Positions 41,079-47,438 of a DNA stretch of 64,000 nt are shown here, in pieces (positions within the stretch are counted from its first letter, which is position 1; each line of letters opens with the position of its first letter). Below the pieces are notes generated by a model. That model worked only from the letters and a program-made list of their open reading frames with translations, did no database searches and was not told where the DNA came from. Source of the DNA: Labilibacter marinus (lineage in GTDB: Bacteria > Bacteroidota > Bacteroidia > Bacteroidales > Marinilabiliaceae); NCBI RefSeq assembly GCF_001659685.2, contig NZ_LXYE02000014.1:1-64000 (forward strand), read 5' to 3'. Both the position numbers and the translations under genes were made by a program.

Positions 41079-41855
41079 TTACTCCTTTATATTTTCTCTT
41101 ACTTCAGCTAAAAAGGCTTTCATTCTGTTGGTGTCCTTATCTTCAATAATCGATAAGAGTTCTTTAAGTTTTAGCCTAATACTTTCAACCTGACCACCCG
41201 AAAATGGGTTGAATAGAATTTCAGATAGTAGATAATCATCTTCACTTAACAAACCTTTAGCAATATCAAGATGTTTGCTGAATGTGGTTCCTGGCGCATC
41301 TTGTTTCTTCATGCAAGAGGCAAAAACCAATGATGATGAAAACGGGATGGATAAAGAGTATGCAATAGTTTCATCGTGCTCAATAAAACTATACTCATGA
41401 ATATTTAATCCCAGAGATAAAAAGAAATCCTTAAAAAAAGCTTTGCCTAAGTGGTCGCCTTGTGAGATGATGATGGCATGGTGCTCACGCAATGATTTTA
41501 GGTTACCAAAGGTAGGTCCAAACATAGGGTGGGTAGAAACATAGCGCATGCCTGTTCCTTCATAATACGTTTGAAAATCTGTTTTTACCGAAGAAATATC
41601 TGAAATAATACAGCTTTTAGGAAGGTAAGGAATTACTTCATCGAAAGCAGCTATGGTATACTTTAAAGTAACCGCATTAATTAATAGTTCAGGAGCAAAC
41701 TCAGTAATTTCTTCCAATTTTGTTAAGCGTTGTGTATTAAAAATATACTTCAGCTTTTCAAGGTTTGGGTCGTAAATAGCCACTTCATGGTCTAAGCAAA
41801 GTGCGTCAGTAAGCCATGTGCCCATTTTACCAGCACCCAATATACAGATCTTCAT
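41079..41855 (-). CDS. tyrA: Prephenate dehydrogenase
   Basis: Oxidative decarboxylation of prephenate to 4-hydroxyphenylpyruvate for tyrosine. 258 residues, single domain. Rossmann motif ILGAGKMGTWL at the start, AIYDPN, DISSVKTDF, and HPMFGPTFG with the active-site His in STHPMFGPT. C-terminal helical dimerisation region. Last gene of pheA-aminotransferase-DAHPS/CM-tyrA. A perfect heptanucleotide repeat ends 3 nt before its start codon, which may affect expression. Confidence 0.94.
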   Translation of the reverse strand: MKICILGAGKMGTWLTDALCLDHEVAIYDPNLEKLKYIFNTQRLTKLEEITEFAPELLINAVTLKYTIAAFDEVIPYLPKSCIISDISSVKTDFQTYYEGTGMRYVSTHPMFGPTFGNLKSLREHHAIIISQGDHLGKAFFKDFFLSLGLNIHEYSFIEHDETIAYSLSIPFSSSLVFASCMKKQDAPGTTFSKHLDIAKGLLSEDDYLLSEILFNPFSGGQVESIRLKLKELLSIIEDKDTNRMKAFLAEVRENIKE

Positions 41856-41951: not shown

Positions 41952-43031
41952 TTATTGATTCATTATTTTATTCTGACGAGTAACAGATTCTTCGTGAATG
42001 CTTTCGAATAATTTCACTAAGAACTCATCTGATAATCCCAGTTTAGCACCACGTTCTTTACGATTATTCATGATTTCATCGTAACGACGTGTTTGTAAAA
42101 TGGTAATGTTATTCTCTTTTTTGTAAGTACCAATGGCCTCAGAAATTTCCATTCTTCTCTGAAGTGTTTCTAATACATCCGTATCTAACTTGTCAATCTC
42201 CTGACGAAGCTCATCTAAAGTAACCCTTGGTTTCTCTCCAATTTGAGGCTCGCGAAGAACAATTTTATCTGTAATTTCTTTAAGCTCAGTTGGTGTTACT
42301 TGTTGGCTAGCATCACTCCATGCTTTTTCTGGACAACGGTGCGATTCAACCAATAAACCATCAAAACCTAAATCCATCGCTTCTTGAGAAATTTCGTAAA
42401 TCAACTCCGCTTTACCGCTGATGTGAGATGGGTCACAAATGATTGGTAACTCAGGACAACGACGCTTTAATTCAATTGGAATTTGCCACTGTGGGTGATT
42501 ACGATATTTAGTTTTGTCGTAAGTAGAAAATCCTCTATGGATAGCCGCTAATTTTTTAATACCCGCTTGATTAATTCTTTCTAAAGCACCAATCCAAAGC
42601 TCTAAATCTGGGTTAACAGGGTTCTTTACTAATACAGGAATATCTGTGCCTTTAAGCGCATCAGCAATTTCTTGCACTGCAAAAGGGTTAGCAGTTGTAC
42701 GAGCACCTACCCATAAAATATCGATACCATGTTTGATAGCTTCAAAAACGTGATGAGCATTGGCTACTTCAGTTCCAACAAACATGCCTGTTTTTTCCTT
42801 TACTTTTTTAAGCCAAGGTAAGCCAATGGTTCCTACACCTTCAAAAGCTCCTGGACGAGTTCTTGGTTTCCAGATACCAGCTCTAAAAATTTTAAATCCA
42901 GCTTCTGATAATTGAGTCGCAGTATCTAATACTTGCTCTTCTGTTTCGGCGCTACATGGGCCTGCAATCATCCAAGGACGAACTACTTCAAGTCCAGGAA
43001 GGCTAATTTTTTCAAGGTCTAATTTTACCAT
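41952..43031 (-). CDS. DAHP synthase / chorismate mutase fusion
   Basis: Bifunctional shikimate-pathway entry enzyme, 359 residues. Residues about 1-260 form a KDO8P/DAHP synthase barrel (WMIAGPCSAET, AGIWKPRTRPGAFEGVG, DILWVGARTTANPFAVQEIADAL, LVKNPVNPDLELWIGALERI, ICDPSHISG, LVESHRCPEKAWSDASQQV). Residues about 270-359 form an AroQ-type chorismate mutase (LDELRQEIDKLDTDVLETLQRRMEISEAIGTYK in parts). The chorismate mutase part also gives feedback control by prephenate in such fusions (family knowledge). It sits between the aminotransferase and tyrA genes. Confidence 0.95.
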   Translation of the reverse strand: MVKLDLEKISLPGLEVVRPWMIAGPCSAETEEQVLDTATQLSEAGFKIFRAGIWKPRTRPGAFEGVGTIGLPWLKKVKEKTGMFVGTEVANAHHVFEAIKHGIDILWVGARTTANPFAVQEIADALKGTDIPVLVKNPVNPDLELWIGALERINQAGIKKLAAIHRGFSTYDKTKYRNHPQWQIPIELKRRCPELPIICDPSHISGKAELIYEISQEAMDLGFDGLLVESHRCPEKAWSDASQQVTPTELKEITDKIVLREPQIGEKPRVTLDELRQEIDKLDTDVLETLQRRMEISEAIGTYKKENNITILQTRRYDEIMNNRKERGAKLGLSDEFLVKLFESIHEESVTRQNKIMNQ

Positions 43032-43103: not shown

Positions 43104-44273
43104 TTATTTTAATACTAAGCTATTTTTTATTTTCTCTATCGATTCTTTTAAAACGGCTTGCGTGGAACACAACGATATTCTAATGTATCGTTCTCCTTGC
43201 TTACCAAAAATGCTGCCAGGTGTAATAAATACATGCGCATCATTTAAAATAATATCCGATAGTTTTTCGGCAGATTCGGTTTGCTCAGGAATTTTAGCCC
43301 ATATAAACATGCCCGATTGAGTTTTATCGTACTTGCAGTCTAGCATATCCATAATTTCCCAAACCAATTCTCTTCGCTCATAATATTCTTTGTTTACTTC
43401 AGCATACCAGCTTTTATCTAAACTTAAAGCTTTTACCGCTGCTAATTGCAAAGGTTTAAACATGCCGCTATCCATATTACTTTTTACACGTAATATATAC
43501 TGTACAAAGTCCGGGTTAGCAGCAATCATTCCCACGCGCCATCCAGCCATGTTATGCGATTTGCTCAAAGAGTTTAACTCGATGCAAATATCTTTTGCTC
43601 CTTCAATTCTGAAAATACTTAAAGGATTATCATTTAAGATGAAGCTATAAGGATTATCATTACAAATAAGAATGTCGTGCTTTTTACCAAAAGCGACTAG
43701 TTTTTCAAAAAGCTCTAAAGTTGCATTGGCGCCAGTAGGCATGTTAGGGTAATTCACCCACATTAGCTTTACCTTTGATAAGTCCATTTTTTCCAACTTA
43801 TCAAAATCAGGCTGCCAATTTAATTCTTCTTCTAAATCGTAGGTTACCATCTCAGCTTCTACTAAATTAGAAACAGAAGCGTAAGTAGGATAGCCAGGAT
43901 TGGGAACTAATACTTGATCGCCCTTATTTAAAAAGGCCATAGAAATATGCATGATGCCTTCCTTTGATCCCATTAATGGCAATATTTCTTTGGCAGGATC
44001 TAAATCTATTTGAAAGTATGTTTTATACCACTCAGAAAAAGCATTTCTTAACTCAGGAATACCAATGTAACTTTGGTAGCCATGATTACCTTTTGCTGAA
44101 GATGCTTTGTTAAGCTCCTCTAATACTTCTGGATGTGGTGGTCTATCAGGATTTCCGATGCCCAAATTGATAATTTGCATACCTTGTTGACGCATCTCAT
44201 CTATTTCTCTCAATTTTTTTGAGAAGTAGTATTCCTTTACTTCGCTGATGCGATTTGCTGGCTGTATGGACAT
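43104..44273 (-). CDS. Class I/II PLP aminotransferase
   Basis: 389 residues, fold type I. PLP Lys238 in NSLSKSHNMAGWRVG, NYPNMPTGA (Asn near 178-180), DNPY, and the C-terminal RISLCS arginine. N-terminal INLGIGNPDRPPHPEV is typical of LL-diaminopimelate/aspartate-type aminotransferases. Context between pheA and DAHPS/CM suggests transamination of phenylpyruvate and 4-hydroxyphenylpyruvate to Phe and Tyr, or of prephenate. Starts 2 nt after pheA, so translation is probably coupled. Confidence 0.9.
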   Translation of the reverse strand: MSIQPANRISEVKEYYFSKKLREIDEMRQQGMQIINLGIGNPDRPPHPEVLEELNKASSAKGNHGYQSYIGIPELRNAFSEWYKTYFQIDLDPAKEILPLMGSKEGIMHISMAFLNKGDQVLVPNPGYPTYASVSNLVEAEMVTYDLEEELNWQPDFDKLEKMDLSKVKLMWVNYPNMPTGANATLELFEKLVAFGKKHDILICNDNPYSFILNDNPLSIFRIEGAKDICIELNSLSKSHNMAGWRVGMIAANPDFVQYILRVKSNMDSGMFKPLQLAAVKALSLDKSWYAEVNKEYYERRELVWEIMDMLDCKYDKTQSGMFIWAKIPEQTESAEKLSDIILNDAHVFITPGSIFGKQGERYIRISLCSTQAVLKESIEKIKNSLVLK

Positions 44274-44275
44274 GC

Positions 44276-45172
44276 TTAAAATGTTTTTTGTTCTGAAAGA
44301 GGTTTGTTATCGTTGCTTACCGTGTCAAATGACCGTTTGCCTACGTGATATTCACCTAAGCTTTTTAGGTTTTTAGTCAAAGGACGAATAGCATCCAATG
44401 ACTGTAGATAACGATTGTAATCTTCAAACACCAAGTCTATATAAAATAAGTATTCCCACTCGCGACCAACAACAGGAAGCGATTGTATTTTAGATAGGTT
44501 GATATTATAAAATGCCAATATTGAAAGTACTTTCGAAAGACTTCCTTCGGCATGTGGTAAGGCAAAAACTACAGATGATTTATTAACCTTATTTTGAATC
44601 AATAAATCCTCCACTTCTGTTTTTCCTTTGTCTGAGATAATTAAGAAACGGGTAAAGTTTCTTTTATTGGTCTCAATATCTTTAGCAATAATTTCTAAAT
44701 CGTATTTTTCAGCAGCTAATTCTGGTGCAATGGCAGCCATTCCTTTTAGCTGATTATCCTGAATCCACTTTCCGCTTAGGGCAGTGTCATCTCGCGAAAT
44801 CATTTTAATATGCGGATATTCCTTAAAAAACTCTCTACACTGAGCCAAAGCCATAGGGTGCGAATGTACTTCGGTAATATCTTCTATGGTTTGTCCTGGT
44901 AAAGCCAATAGTTGGTGCTTAATACGTAGTTTGTATTCGCCAATAACTACCAATCCAGAGTCCTTAAGTAAAGTGTAATTTTGAAGAATGCTTCCTACCA
45001 AAGTGTTTTCGATGGCAATAATACCATAAATAGAATTATCCTGCCTTAGCGTTTCAAACAGCACTTCAAATGAATCGCACTGAACGGTTTCAATGTCATT
45101 TGTTTCGAAATATGCTTTGGCCGCAATTTCGTGGTTTGAACCACCTCCTCCTTGAATCGCTACTTTCTTCAT
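44276..45172 (-). CDS. pheA: Prephenate dehydratase with ACT domain
   Basis: Converts prephenate to phenylpyruvate. 298 residues. The start is set at ATG 45172: MKKVAIQGGGGSNHEIAAKAY is the family N-terminus, while an upstream in-frame start at 45232 lies inside the leader terminator. The catalytic TRF is seen in NKRNFTRFLIIS; the C-terminal 90 residues form an ACT domain (KSSVVFALPHAEGSLSKVLSIL) for phenylalanine feedback, with SLPVVGREWEYLFYIDLVF. First structural gene of the operon; expression is probably set by the upstream attenuator. Confidence 0.95.
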   Translation of the reverse strand: MKKVAIQGGGGSNHEIAAKAYFETNDIETVQCDSFEVLFETLRQDNSIYGIIAIENTLVGSILQNYTLLKDSGLVVIGEYKLRIKHQLLALPGQTIEDITEVHSHPMALAQCREFFKEYPHIKMISRDDTALSGKWIQDNQLKGMAAIAPELAAEKYDLEIIAKDIETNKRNFTRFLIISDKGKTEVEDLLIQNKVNKSSVVFALPHAEGSLSKVLSILAFYNINLSKIQSLPVVGREWEYLFYIDLVFEDYNRYLQSLDAIRPLTKNLKSLGEYHVGKRSFDTVSNDNKPLSEQKTF

Positions 45173-45212
45173 GTTTACTCTTGTTAACTGCTTCCGAATG
45201 AACGGAATTGCT

Positions 45213-45251
45213 ATAAAATAAAAAAGTCCCACCTGTACTAGGTGGGACTTT
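45213..45251 (-). terminator. Attenuator terminator hairpin before pheA
   Basis: On the minus strand: perfect 12-bp stem AAAGTCCCACCT (45251-45240)/AGGTGGGACTTT (45234-45223), 5-nt loop AGTAC, then TTTTTT A TTTT. It lies between the leader peptide and pheA. The same AGGTGGG as in the second arm occurs upstream (45281-45287) and can pair with the first arm instead, forming the antiterminator. Confidence 0.92.
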
Positions 45252-45273
45252 AAATTTTTTCAAATTTTATATA

Positions 45274-45351
45274 CTATAAACCCACCTCTTTTTGATTACA
45301 GAATCCAAAAAAGTAAAAATAAAAGCTATAAAAAAATGTAAAATGGGTCAT
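45274..45351 (-). CDS. Phe/Tyr-rich leader peptide of the pheA operon
   Basis: 25-codon reading frame, ATG at 45351-45349, TAG at 45276-45274. Residues 4-17 read FTFFYSFYFYFFGF: 8 Phe and 3 Tyr in 14 residues, followed by CNQKEVGL. Segment 2 of the attenuator (AGGTGGG, 45281-45287) lies in codons 22-24, just before the stop. If Phe- or Tyr-tRNA is scarce, the ribosome stalls in the aromatic run and leaves segment 2 free to pair with the first terminator arm, so transcription continues; if not, the ribosome covers segment 2 and the terminator forms. This is the classical peptide-attenuation layout. The peptide itself probably has no other function. Too short for normal gene finding. Confidence 0.92.
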   Translation of the reverse strand: MTHFTFFYSFYFYFFGFCNQKEVGL

Positions 45352-45373
45352 TTGTTTCTTTTTAAACTGATGG

Positions 45374-45403
45374 CAAATGTAGTATAAAAATGTACGCAAC
45401 AAA
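45374..45403 (-). promoter_or_regulatory. Promoter of the pheA operon
   Basis: Minus-strand TTTG (45403-45400), 18-nt spacer, TACATTTG (45381-45374), matching the Bacteroidota TTTG...TAnnTTTG consensus. Transcription would start near 45367, only about 16 nt before the leader ATG. Confidence 0.78.
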
Positions 45404-45569
45404 AATATTTGTACTAAAATTAATTATTTTTTAAGATGCGGTGCTGATAGATTGCAAGTAATACCTTGTTTTTAATGATAATTTATTGCTTAAGGCATTA
45501 TTGTATATTTATTCATTTATGCACTGATGTTTATCATGCGTCAATTATGAGCTCATCCTTTACAGTAAT

Positions 45570-47438
45570 TTACCCTCCAATCTCACTTAGCTCAAGCCAA
45601 CGCATTTCCTTTTCATCTAATAAATCGATTACCTCGCTTATGCGTTTCGATTTTTCAGTTAATGCATCCGCATCCAAGGCGCCAGAATTTAAGGCTTCTT
45701 CTATTTCAGATTTTTCAGAATTTAAATCTTCCATAGCTTGCTCCAGCTCTTCCATTTCCTTTTTTTCTTTAAAAGATAACTTTCGAGGTTTATCTTTAGC
45801 AGGCACAGCTTTTATAGTAGGTTCCTTTTTTACCTTGACAACCTTCTTTAGTTCTTTCTCTTCTTCTAATTTAAAATCGTGGTAAATGGTGTAGTTACCA
45901 GGGAAATCTTGGATGACCCCTTGTCCTTCGAATACAAACAGATGGTCTACTATTTTATCCATAAAGTATCTATCGTGCGAAACAATGACAACACAACCTT
46001 TGAAGTTTTGTAGGTATTCTTCGAGTAGGTTGAGAGTGAAGATATCCAGGTCGTTGGTAGGCTCATCCAGTATCAAGAAGTTAGGGTTCTTCATTAATAC
46101 AGTCATTAAGTATAAACGTTTCTTTTCTCCACCACTTAACTTATCCACCTGTACATGGTGCATTTCGTTGGTAAATAAAAAATGACGCAGAAATTGAGCA
46201 GGGCTCATGGAGCTACCAGAGCCAACAGTGATATTCTCCGAAATGTCAGCAATCACATCGAGTACTCGCTTGCTAGGGTCAATATTCATTCCTGACTGAC
46301 GATAATAGCCAACAACTACAGTTTCTCCTGTTTCAAGGTATCCCGTATCAGGTTTTAAGGCTCCAGTAATGGTATTTAAAAAAGTAGATTTACCTGTCCC
46401 ATTTTTACCGATGATTCCTACTTTTTCGCCTTGTGCAAATTTGTAATTAAAATCATCCAGTATTTTAAGTTCTCCAAAGGCCTTACATACATTGTGGCAT
46501 TCTATAATTTTCTTTCCTAAGCGAGCAGATTTGATATCCAAGTTCATGGTTTGTTCTTGAAGACCGCTGTTTGCTTTCTTTTTTAAATCATGAAAAGCAT
46601 CAATTCTATATTTAGCTTTTGTAGCCCTTGCCTGAGGCATTCTGTTCATCCAATCTTGCTCAGTTTTGAGTAGGTTTTTTGCCTTCTCCACCTGGGCGTT
46701 ATGGTTCTGAATACGTTCTTCTCTTTTTTCAAGGAAAAACTGATAGTTCCCTTTGTAGGGATAAAGGGTTTGGTCAGCTAGCTCAATGATTTCGTTACAC
46801 ACACGATCCAGAAAATATCTATCGTGAGTAACCATTATTAAGGTGCACTTCGATCTTTCTAGATAAGCCTCTAGCCACTCAATCATCTCTAAATCGAGGT
46901 GGTTGGTAGGCTCGTCTAAAATAAGAAATTGTGGCTCGTTAATTAATATGTTGGCCAGTGCAACTCTCTTTTTTTGTCCACCCGAAAGTTGACTTATTTG
47001 CTGGTCGAAATTCGTGATTTTTAACTCAGTAAGGATTTGCTTAATCCTCGATTCAAAATCCCAAGCATTAAGTTTATCCAGCTCTTCAATTAAATGTCCC
47101 AGTTCCTCATGGTTTTCATCAGCTAAAGCTTTTTCGTAGGCTTTAATAGCAATTACCTGAGGATTATCCGAAGCAAAAATTTCTTCTATTACTGAATGAT
47201 TATCGTCTAATTGAGGAATTTGAGGTAAATAGCCTACAGATATCCCTTTGCGATATGTAATTAGACCGCTTTCGTTAGGAAGTACGTGTGCAAGTATATT
47301 TAATAGCGTAGTTTTTCCTGTTCCGTTACGAGCAATTAAACCAATTTTTTGTCCTTCAGAAACGCCAAAATTGAGGTCGTCAAACAATCTTATATCGCCC
47401 CAATGATGGGTCAGGTTTTCTACAGATAAGTAATTCAT
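45570..47438 (-). CDS. ABC-F family ATPase (Uup-like)
   Basis: Soluble twin-ATPase protein of the ABC-F type, acting on ribosomes or in DNA maintenance rather than transport. 622 residues. ATPase 1: Walker A ARNGTGKTTLL, signature LSGGQKKRVALA, Walker B LILDEPTNHLDL. Linker about 235-310 with MNRMPQARATKAKYR. ATPase 2: IGKNGTGKSTFLN, LSGGEKKRLYLM, LILDEPTNDLDI. The C-terminal 90 residues are a charged coiled coil (KEKKEMEELEQAMEDLNSEKSE), as in Uup. The region upstream holds repeat-like DNA. It ends before the pheA promoter. Confidence 0.95.
   Translation of the reverse strand: MNYLSVENLTHHWGDIRLFDDLNFGVSEGQKIGLIARNGTGKTTLLNILAHVLPNESGLITYRKGISVGYLPQIPQLDDNHSVIEEIFASDNPQVIAIKAYEKALADENHEELGHLIEELDKLNAWDFESRIKQILTELKITNFDQQISQLSGGQKKRVALANILINEPQFLILDEPTNHLDLEMIEWLEAYLERSKCTLIMVTHDRYFLDRVCNEIIELADQTLYPYKGNYQFFLEKREERIQNHNAQVEKAKNLLKTEQDWMNRMPQARATKAKYRIDAFHDLKKKANSGLQEQTMNLDIKSARLGKKIIECHNVCKAFGELKILDDFNYKFAQGEKVGIIGKNGTGKSTFLNTITGALKPDTGYLETGETVVVGYYRQSGMNIDPSKRVLDVIADISENITVGSGSSMSPAQFLRHFLFTNEMHHVQVDKLSGGEKKRLYLMTVLMKNPNFLILDEPTNDLDIFTLNLLEEYLQNFKGCVVIVSHDRYFMDKIVDHLFVFEGQGVIQDFPGNYTIYHDFKLEEEKELKKVVKVKKEPTIKAVPAKDKPRKLSFKEKKEMEELEQAMEDLNSEKSEIEEALNSGALDADALTEKSKRISEVIDLLDEKEMRWLELSEIGG

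Follow-up and report, generated by a model that had tools for sequence, protein, structure and literature searches.

Among the closest described counterparts of the element reported here is the pheA attenuator of enterobacteria (Phe_leader, RF01859), whose leader in E. coli is rich in Phe codons only. Pertinent leaders may have been listed before: a 2010 work by Lopatovskaya (Mol Biol 44:128; cited in PMC4833913), by its title a survey of amino acid operon attenuation in bacteria, may already include pheA leaders of Bacteroidota. For bacteria at large, the authors who described a Firmicutes case in 2010 stated that, to their knowledge, leader-peptide systems had until then been shown in Proteobacteria and Actinobacteria only (PMC2965389). 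In the bacterial group studied here, the Bacteroid-trp leader (RF01692) is a curated leader-peptide RNA (Weinberg 2010, PMC2864571), and ORFs reminiscent of leader peptides have been noted in 5′ UTRs of Bacteroides thetaiotaomicron (PMC7366714). A transcriptome study of Flavobacterium psychrophilum published in 2021 reported 64 structured 5′ regions, strong clues for leader-peptide attenuation before amino acid operons, and a structured 5′ element upstream of pheA that is conserved in other Flavobacteriaceae genera and has no Rfam hit (PMC9723704). The latter shares its gene and its phylum with our element; the passages of that text on the pheA element give no leader sequence, segments or range past the family, and pheA is not named there as a leader-peptide case (PMC9723704).

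Here we describe an element upstream of pheA in Labilibacter marinus that we take, with a probability of about 0.93, to be a ribosome-mediated attenuator controlling the transcription of a pheA-aminotransferase-DAHP synthase/chorismate mutase-tyrA operon. A first reading of this DNA from its letters alone (the sequence-only reading) had named the parts of such an attenuator and had known of no described example. That statement stands for leader anatomy and range, as no paper with either for a Bacteroidota pheA leader was found in the open-licence literature of PubMed Central, but it needs amending in that a structured pheA 5′ element had already been reported (PMC9723704). New here are the anatomy of the leader, its mixed Phe and Tyr codons, the near-constant spacing and the breadth of the distribution.

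MATERIALS AND METHODS

The window, i.e., the whole stretch of DNA that was analysed, comprises 64,000 nt of L. marinus (NZ_LXYE02000014.1, positions 1 to 64,000), and the element is read on its minus strand. PheA was searched for in 61 relatives, 44 of which had a match, and in 247 genomes of the class, 73 of which had a match; two matches were common to both. The resulting class set holds 112 loci, 110 of them with enough upstream DNA, the distant matches G080, G272 and G082 having been left out. In this set, a leader was called at a threshold of at least 6 Phe or Tyr codons per 14 codons, with ATG, GTG or TTG as the start. From outside the class, 20 upstream regions of the same phylum were chosen across families from the PheA matches. 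Terminators were called with an ungapped finder, which overlooks bulged hairpins and those poor in G-C pairs. The class set and a set from a named collection were pooled, giving 161 loci with a leader and 136 with a leader and a terminator; because the two sets partly overlap, pooled comparisons were restricted to 132 distinct sequences. In the swap test, the pairing of segment 3 with its own leader was ranked against its pairing with the leaders of other loci among these 132 sequences.

RESULTS AND DISCUSSION

On direct reading, all elements named by the sequence-only reading are present base for base where it had placed them, including the TTTG-N18-box promoter, the 25-codon leader, the AGGTGGG, CCCACCT and AGGTGGG segments, and the 12-bp terminator hairpin (Table 1). 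The count of 8 Phe and 3 Tyr in 14 codons is likewise exact for the aromatic run, FTFFYSFYFYFFGF. The claim that every part of an attenuator had been listed fell one short, as segment 1 and its predicted pairing with segment 2, which would be the protector hairpin of the classical scheme, had been overlooked; with segment 1, the four classical attenuator segments are present. The terminator consists of 12 pairs (45251-45240/45234-45223) closed by a 5-nt loop, and 50 nt separate the end of its stem from the pheA ATG at 45172. In the window, the 2:3 pairing exceeds that of shuffled sequences (p 0.015).

Table 1. Coordinates of the leader elements and operon genes in the window.
Feature	Position	Strand	Sequence or basis
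Promoter (putative)	45374..45403	-	TTTG at 45403-45400, 18-nt spacer, TACATTTG -7 box at 45381-45374; direct reading
Leader ORF, 25 codons + TAG	45274..45351	-	MTHFTFFYSFYFYFFGFCNQKEVGL; ATG at 45351, TAG end at 45274
Segment 1, from the final start-codon base to codon 4	45340..45349	-	GACCCATTTT; partner of segment 2 in the minimum-energy fold
Segment 2, in the final leader codons GAG GTG GGT	45281..45287	-	AGGTGGG; pairs with segment 3
Segment 3, antiterminator partner and terminator 5′ arm	45240..45251	-	AAAGTCCCACCT; CCCACCT at 45246-45240
Segment 4, terminator 3′ arm	45223..45234	-	AGGTGGGACTTT; second AGGTGGG at 45234-45228
Terminator T run	45215..45225	-	TTTTTTATTTT; the stem includes its first three T
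pheA, first operon gene, encoding prephenate dehydratase (298 aa)	44276..45172	-	NF008865, E 4.5e-58, 196.6 bits, cut-off of 219 not reached
PLP aminotransferase	43104..44273	-	top-scoring families LL-diaminopimelate aminotransferase, cut-off not reached
DAHP synthase-chorismate mutase fusion	41952..43031	-	family matches below cut-off
tyrA-like prephenate dehydrogenase	41079..41855	-	NF006409, E 2.5e-16, below cut-off

With regard to the promoter, a TAnnTTTG box was found by eye 5′ of the leader in all nine same-genus loci, and the TTTG box was read in the window alone. TAnnTTTG has been reported as the sigma-A -7 consensus in a flavobacterium. A sigma-70 promoter scan of 44900-45700, with a model that does not cover Bacteroidota promoters, gave no match.

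The 141-nt leader folds with -36.4 kcal/mol (z -4.66), a stability equalled by none of 200 shuffles, and in the minimum-energy fold of the free RNA segment 1 is paired with segment 2. Two terminator-like sites, representing one hairpin scored on both strands, were found in 44900-45700 versus a shuffle mean of 0.3. Among the ATG ORFs of 8 to 70 codons on both strands of the window, the leader is the only one with at least 8 Phe or Tyr per 14 codons, and two others reach 7. Searching a plasmid collection for similar DNA gave no match.

The genes follow in the order pheA, aminotransferase, DAHP synthase/chorismate mutase and tyrA-like gene, with intergenic gaps of 2, 72 and 96 nt, and all four score under the curated cut-offs of their best models. 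From its context, the aminotransferase is probably an aromatic one. The first step of the pathway and both end branches are present in the operon, in keeping with the earlier view that mixed Phe and Tyr codons suit an operon making both amino acids, and the codon content suggests that Tyr may be sensed as well. As Phe and Tyr codons are interspersed, the ribosome would be expected to stall in the control region whenever one of the two amino acids runs short.

The sequence-only reading had suggested, as a check, looking upstream of pheA in related genomes for such short frames and a covarying terminator stem. This comparison bore it out, in that leader, terminator and antiterminator recur in most of the relatives sampled and the terminator stem covaries. 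A Phe/Tyr-rich leader was found in 88 of the 110 class loci, in 83 of them together with an automatically found ungapped terminator; the other five have a hairpin and a T run by eye, which the terminator finder overlooked. By a stricter count (at least 8 Phe or Tyr per 14 codons, ATG ORFs within 300 nt), 66 of the 110 loci have a leader; among the controls, this count is reached by 5 of 2200 dinucleotide-shuffled sequences and by none of the 110 antisense strands. In the named collection, 78 of the best 80 matches listed have enough upstream DNA, and 73 of these 78 have a leader (at least 6 F/Y/W per 14 codons); carriers among the matches listed include Bacteroides fragilis, B. xylanisolvens, Phocaeicola vulgatus and Prevotella. 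In 69 of the 80 named loci among the matches listed, the fetched stretch holds all four operon genes in unchanged order, the nearest named PheA among the matches being that of a Marinilabiliaceae MAG, with 73% identity. No terminator was called for 25 of the 161 leader loci of the pooled set; on folding, most of these show a hairpin followed by a T run by eye, including eight Bacteroides-type loci (L048, L049, L133, L136, L147, L148, L149 and L152). Among the folded loci, L166, L173 and L191 have a weak T run, and L106 has its hairpin at a long distance from the leader.

The leader frame is free of indels in all nine same-genus loci, the window included. Within codons 6 to 17, four of the six distinct codon variants seen in the genus are synonymous, versus 14 of 108 possible single changes; the two nonsynonymous ones are F>Y and S>N, and the core Tyr positions are retained across the genus, with TAT/TAC exchanges. 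In a covariation alignment of 20 sequences, which are related, so that shuffle counts for its helices are not probabilities, 94.5% of the cells of the terminator (3:4) are paired, and 4 of its 12 pairs are changed on both sides, a number that 6 of 500 shuffles reach; its covariation score is matched by 0 of 500, and additional pair types are not more numerous than in shuffles. For the 2:3 helix, with the same reading of the counts, 95.7% of the cells are paired, and both pairing and covariation score are matched by 0 of 500 shuffles; a single pair has changes on both sides, no more than in shuffles. The 1:2 helix is paired in 69.2% of cells across this alignment and does not clearly exceed shuffles, 89 of 500 being equally high. 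Invariant columns of the alignment fall within the aromatic codons, within segment 2 and within the terminator.

Taken locus by locus, the 2:3 pairing is above shuffles (p at most 0.05) in 64 of 83 loci and is not above them at this level in the other 19, and the pairing of segment 1 reaches p at most 0.05 in 17 of the 83, being weak outside the genus. The swap test shows that segment 3 prefers its own leader: the rank is at most 0.25 in 112 of 132 sequences (33 expected) and at most 0.05 in 44 of 132 (about 7 expected). In five of the 132 the rank is above 0.5, and most other leaders are preferred. Within segment 3, the part pairing with segment 2 has 82 distinct sequences in the 132 loci, and a contiguous helix of at least 6 pairs is found in 119 of them when the best helix per locus is taken, a count made without a control.

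The locus has a short ORF rich in cognate codons, a predicted and conserved terminator ahead of pheA, and a 2:3 pairing that is exclusive with 3:4, with segment 2 at the end of the leader. We propose the following course of events. The RNA would start approximately 15 to 20 nt 5′ of the leader ATG. While Phe-tRNA and Tyr-tRNA are ample, the ribosome would reach the stop codon and hide segment 2, so that 3:4 would form and the polymerase would halt before pheA. When either charged tRNA is scarce, the ribosome would stall on the Phe/Tyr run, whose last codon sits just 5′ of segment 2; segment 1 would then be covered or out of play, and the free segment 2 would take the emerging segment 3, allowing read-through. 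If the leader is left untranslated, 1:2 would form and the terminator would win; since the predicted fold of the free RNA has 1:2, termination is expected without leader translation.

The geometry of the leaders is consistent with this course. Segment 2 follows the last aromatic codon after a median gap of 9 nt (interquartile range 8 to 11, range -17 to 15; 132 sequences), a spacing that is partly expected because T-rich aromatic codons cannot pair with the C-rich segment 3. In E. coli, the ribosome footprint extends about 9 nt beyond the A-site codon, and given this footprint, the median gap would place segment 2 at the leading edge of the stalled ribosome. With the same assumed footprint, a stalled ribosome leaves at least 6 bases of segment 2 free in 127 of the 132 sequences, and a ribosome at the stop codon overlaps segment 2 in 107 and leaves it uncovered in 25. 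In a simulation of the window RNA ending after segment 3, 2:3 forms with codon 2, 6, 10, 14 or 17 in the A site and does not form with codon 20, 23 or 26 there. Together with the 2:3 pairing and the own-leader preference, this agrees with the predicted competition of segments 2 and 4 for segment 3, as the sequence-only reading had it. When segment 4 is included, the terminator is the equilibrium state in all eight simulated ribosome positions; the switch would thus have to be kinetic and be made during transcription, which is when the choice falls in the classical attenuation model (PMC1183508).

Which amino acids are sensed was considered from the composition of the leaders. Tallied over the 88 script-called leaders, which include one mis-anchored ORF (L007, with an in-frame upstream ATG), Phe is present in 87, Tyr in 85 and Trp in 28, and the totals are 493 Phe versus 320 Tyr. 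The surplus of Phe, together with the leader of E. coli being rich in Phe only, would suit an attenuator that senses Phe alone and carries Tyr codons as tolerated filler, but Tyr is found in nearly every leader, its core positions are kept in the genus with TAT/TAC exchanges, and the operon includes a tyrA-like gene, so we regard a Phe-only sensor as unlikely, though the most serious of the alternatives. No link between Tyr codons and tyrA in the operon could be made out, as leaders of operons without a tyrA hit in the fetched stretch contain Tyr too.

Other biosynthetic operons of this genome were also examined, and a leader and a terminator were seen upstream of all three, hisG, trpE and ilvD. 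Upstream of hisG (L194), an ORF at -160 encodes a His leader, MTNITHHHGHHFYLL, followed by a strong terminator; it has no Rfam match to E 1. Upstream of trpE (L195), an ORF at -159 encodes a Trp leader, MTNLMNNTWWWHWLFLK, with a terminator. This leader scores 43.6 bits against Bacteroid-trp RF01692 and does not reach the gathering score of 49, which means that leader-peptide models can miss members in the L. marinus genome. Upstream of ilvD (L196), an ORF at -252 encodes an Ile/Leu/Val-rich leader, MNNIFSLILINVILLVITKRT, with a terminator.

On the other side of the pheA leader, 5′ of it on the same strand, lies an ABC-F gene (45570-47438, minus strand), which passes the model NF000355 for ribosomal-protection-like ABC-F proteins (447.3 bits versus a cut-off of 380) and scores under the cut-offs of the Uup and EttA models. 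Drug-sensing leaders have been described, and with such a neighbour one could imagine a leader that reacts to a drug bound to the ribosome, or to translation slowing down in general, and not to Phe/Tyr supply. We consider this very improbable, as the ABC-F gene precedes the leader instead of following it, the leader is rich in the very amino acids that the operon makes, and hisG, trpE and ilvD of the same genome are headed by His, Trp and Ile/Leu/Val leaders, respectively.

Rfam was searched to E 10 with the pheA leader, and none of the 21 matches reached the gathering score of its family. Phe_leader RF01859 ranked first with 35.9 bits (E 0.00037; gathering score 55), so by that rule the window leader is not a member of this family. 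In 20 relatives, there were seven matches to E 0.1, none at the gathering score; three of the 20 match Phe_leader at E 0.1 or better, with 37.8, 39.6 and 42 bits. The window leader nevertheless appears to work like Phe_leader: both have a leader with aromatic codons, a terminator before pheA and a rival antiterminator, and the covariance model aligned end to end. They differ in that the window leader mixes Phe and Tyr codons and that its operon includes the DAHP synthase/chorismate mutase gene and a tyrA-like gene. Bacteroid-trp RF01692, which differs in having Trp codons and a trp operon, was not among the 21 matches.

Terminator attenuators can work without a leader peptide, and supply could in principle be sensed by a metabolite- or tRNA-binding RNA, such as a riboswitch or T-box, or by a protein-binding leader; with neither T-box nor riboswitch among the 21 Rfam matches, and with the invariant columns falling within aromatic codons, segment 2 and terminator, this seems to us even less probable than the response to a drug. 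Least credible of all is that the hairpin, which does score as a terminator on both strands, merely ends the transcript of the ABC-F gene (ending at 45570) and that the Phe/Tyr ORF is a product of chance in T-rich DNA, where such codons arise easily, as a TAnnTTTG box lies between that gene and the leader, the leader frame, aromatic run, segment 2 and terminator co-occur before pheA across the class, and the stricter count found next to nothing in shuffled and antisense controls.

Returning to the attenuator reading, we give even odds to a wider proposal, namely that these leaders form a class-wide attenuator family, above no Rfam threshold, in which one leader senses a shortage of either Phe or Tyr (in about a third of the leaders, Trp too) on behalf of the whole aromatic branch operon, with segment 2 about 9 nt past the last aromatic codon, at the edge of the stalled ribosome. 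If this is true, the ubiquity of the attenuator implies tight coupling of transcription and translation in Bacteroidota. Initiation in flavobacteria has been reported to be mostly free of Shine-Dalgarno sequences, and Bacteroidota at large mostly initiate without them. A widely conserved attenuator would be added to a phylum for which we found little documented leader-peptide control in the open-licence literature. Gut Bacteroides and Prevotella, for which transcriptome data and genetics exist, are included, and the leader offers a direct test both of transcription-translation coupling in Bacteroidota and of two-amino-acid control by one leader. In addition, genome annotation could name such leaders.

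Outside the class, an aromatic leader with a terminator was found in 5 of the 20 phylum regions (L199 to L203), and the other 15 have no ORF with at least 6 F/Y/W per 14 codons. The five carriers have the five top PheA scores of the 20, their PheA being closest to that of the window. The leader may move together with pheA operons of this type. Within the class, 22 of the 110 loci are without a leader at the threshold. These include all eight loci of one family (f39: L059, L062, L065 to L068, L070 and L072), with a weak terminator-like site in L067 alone, so that the attenuator has apparently been lost before pheA in this family. The 22 also include three loci of another single family (L056, L057 and L061), in which the aromatic run, TYFWFYP, is much shorter, combines Tyr, Phe and Trp, and is followed by a terminator.
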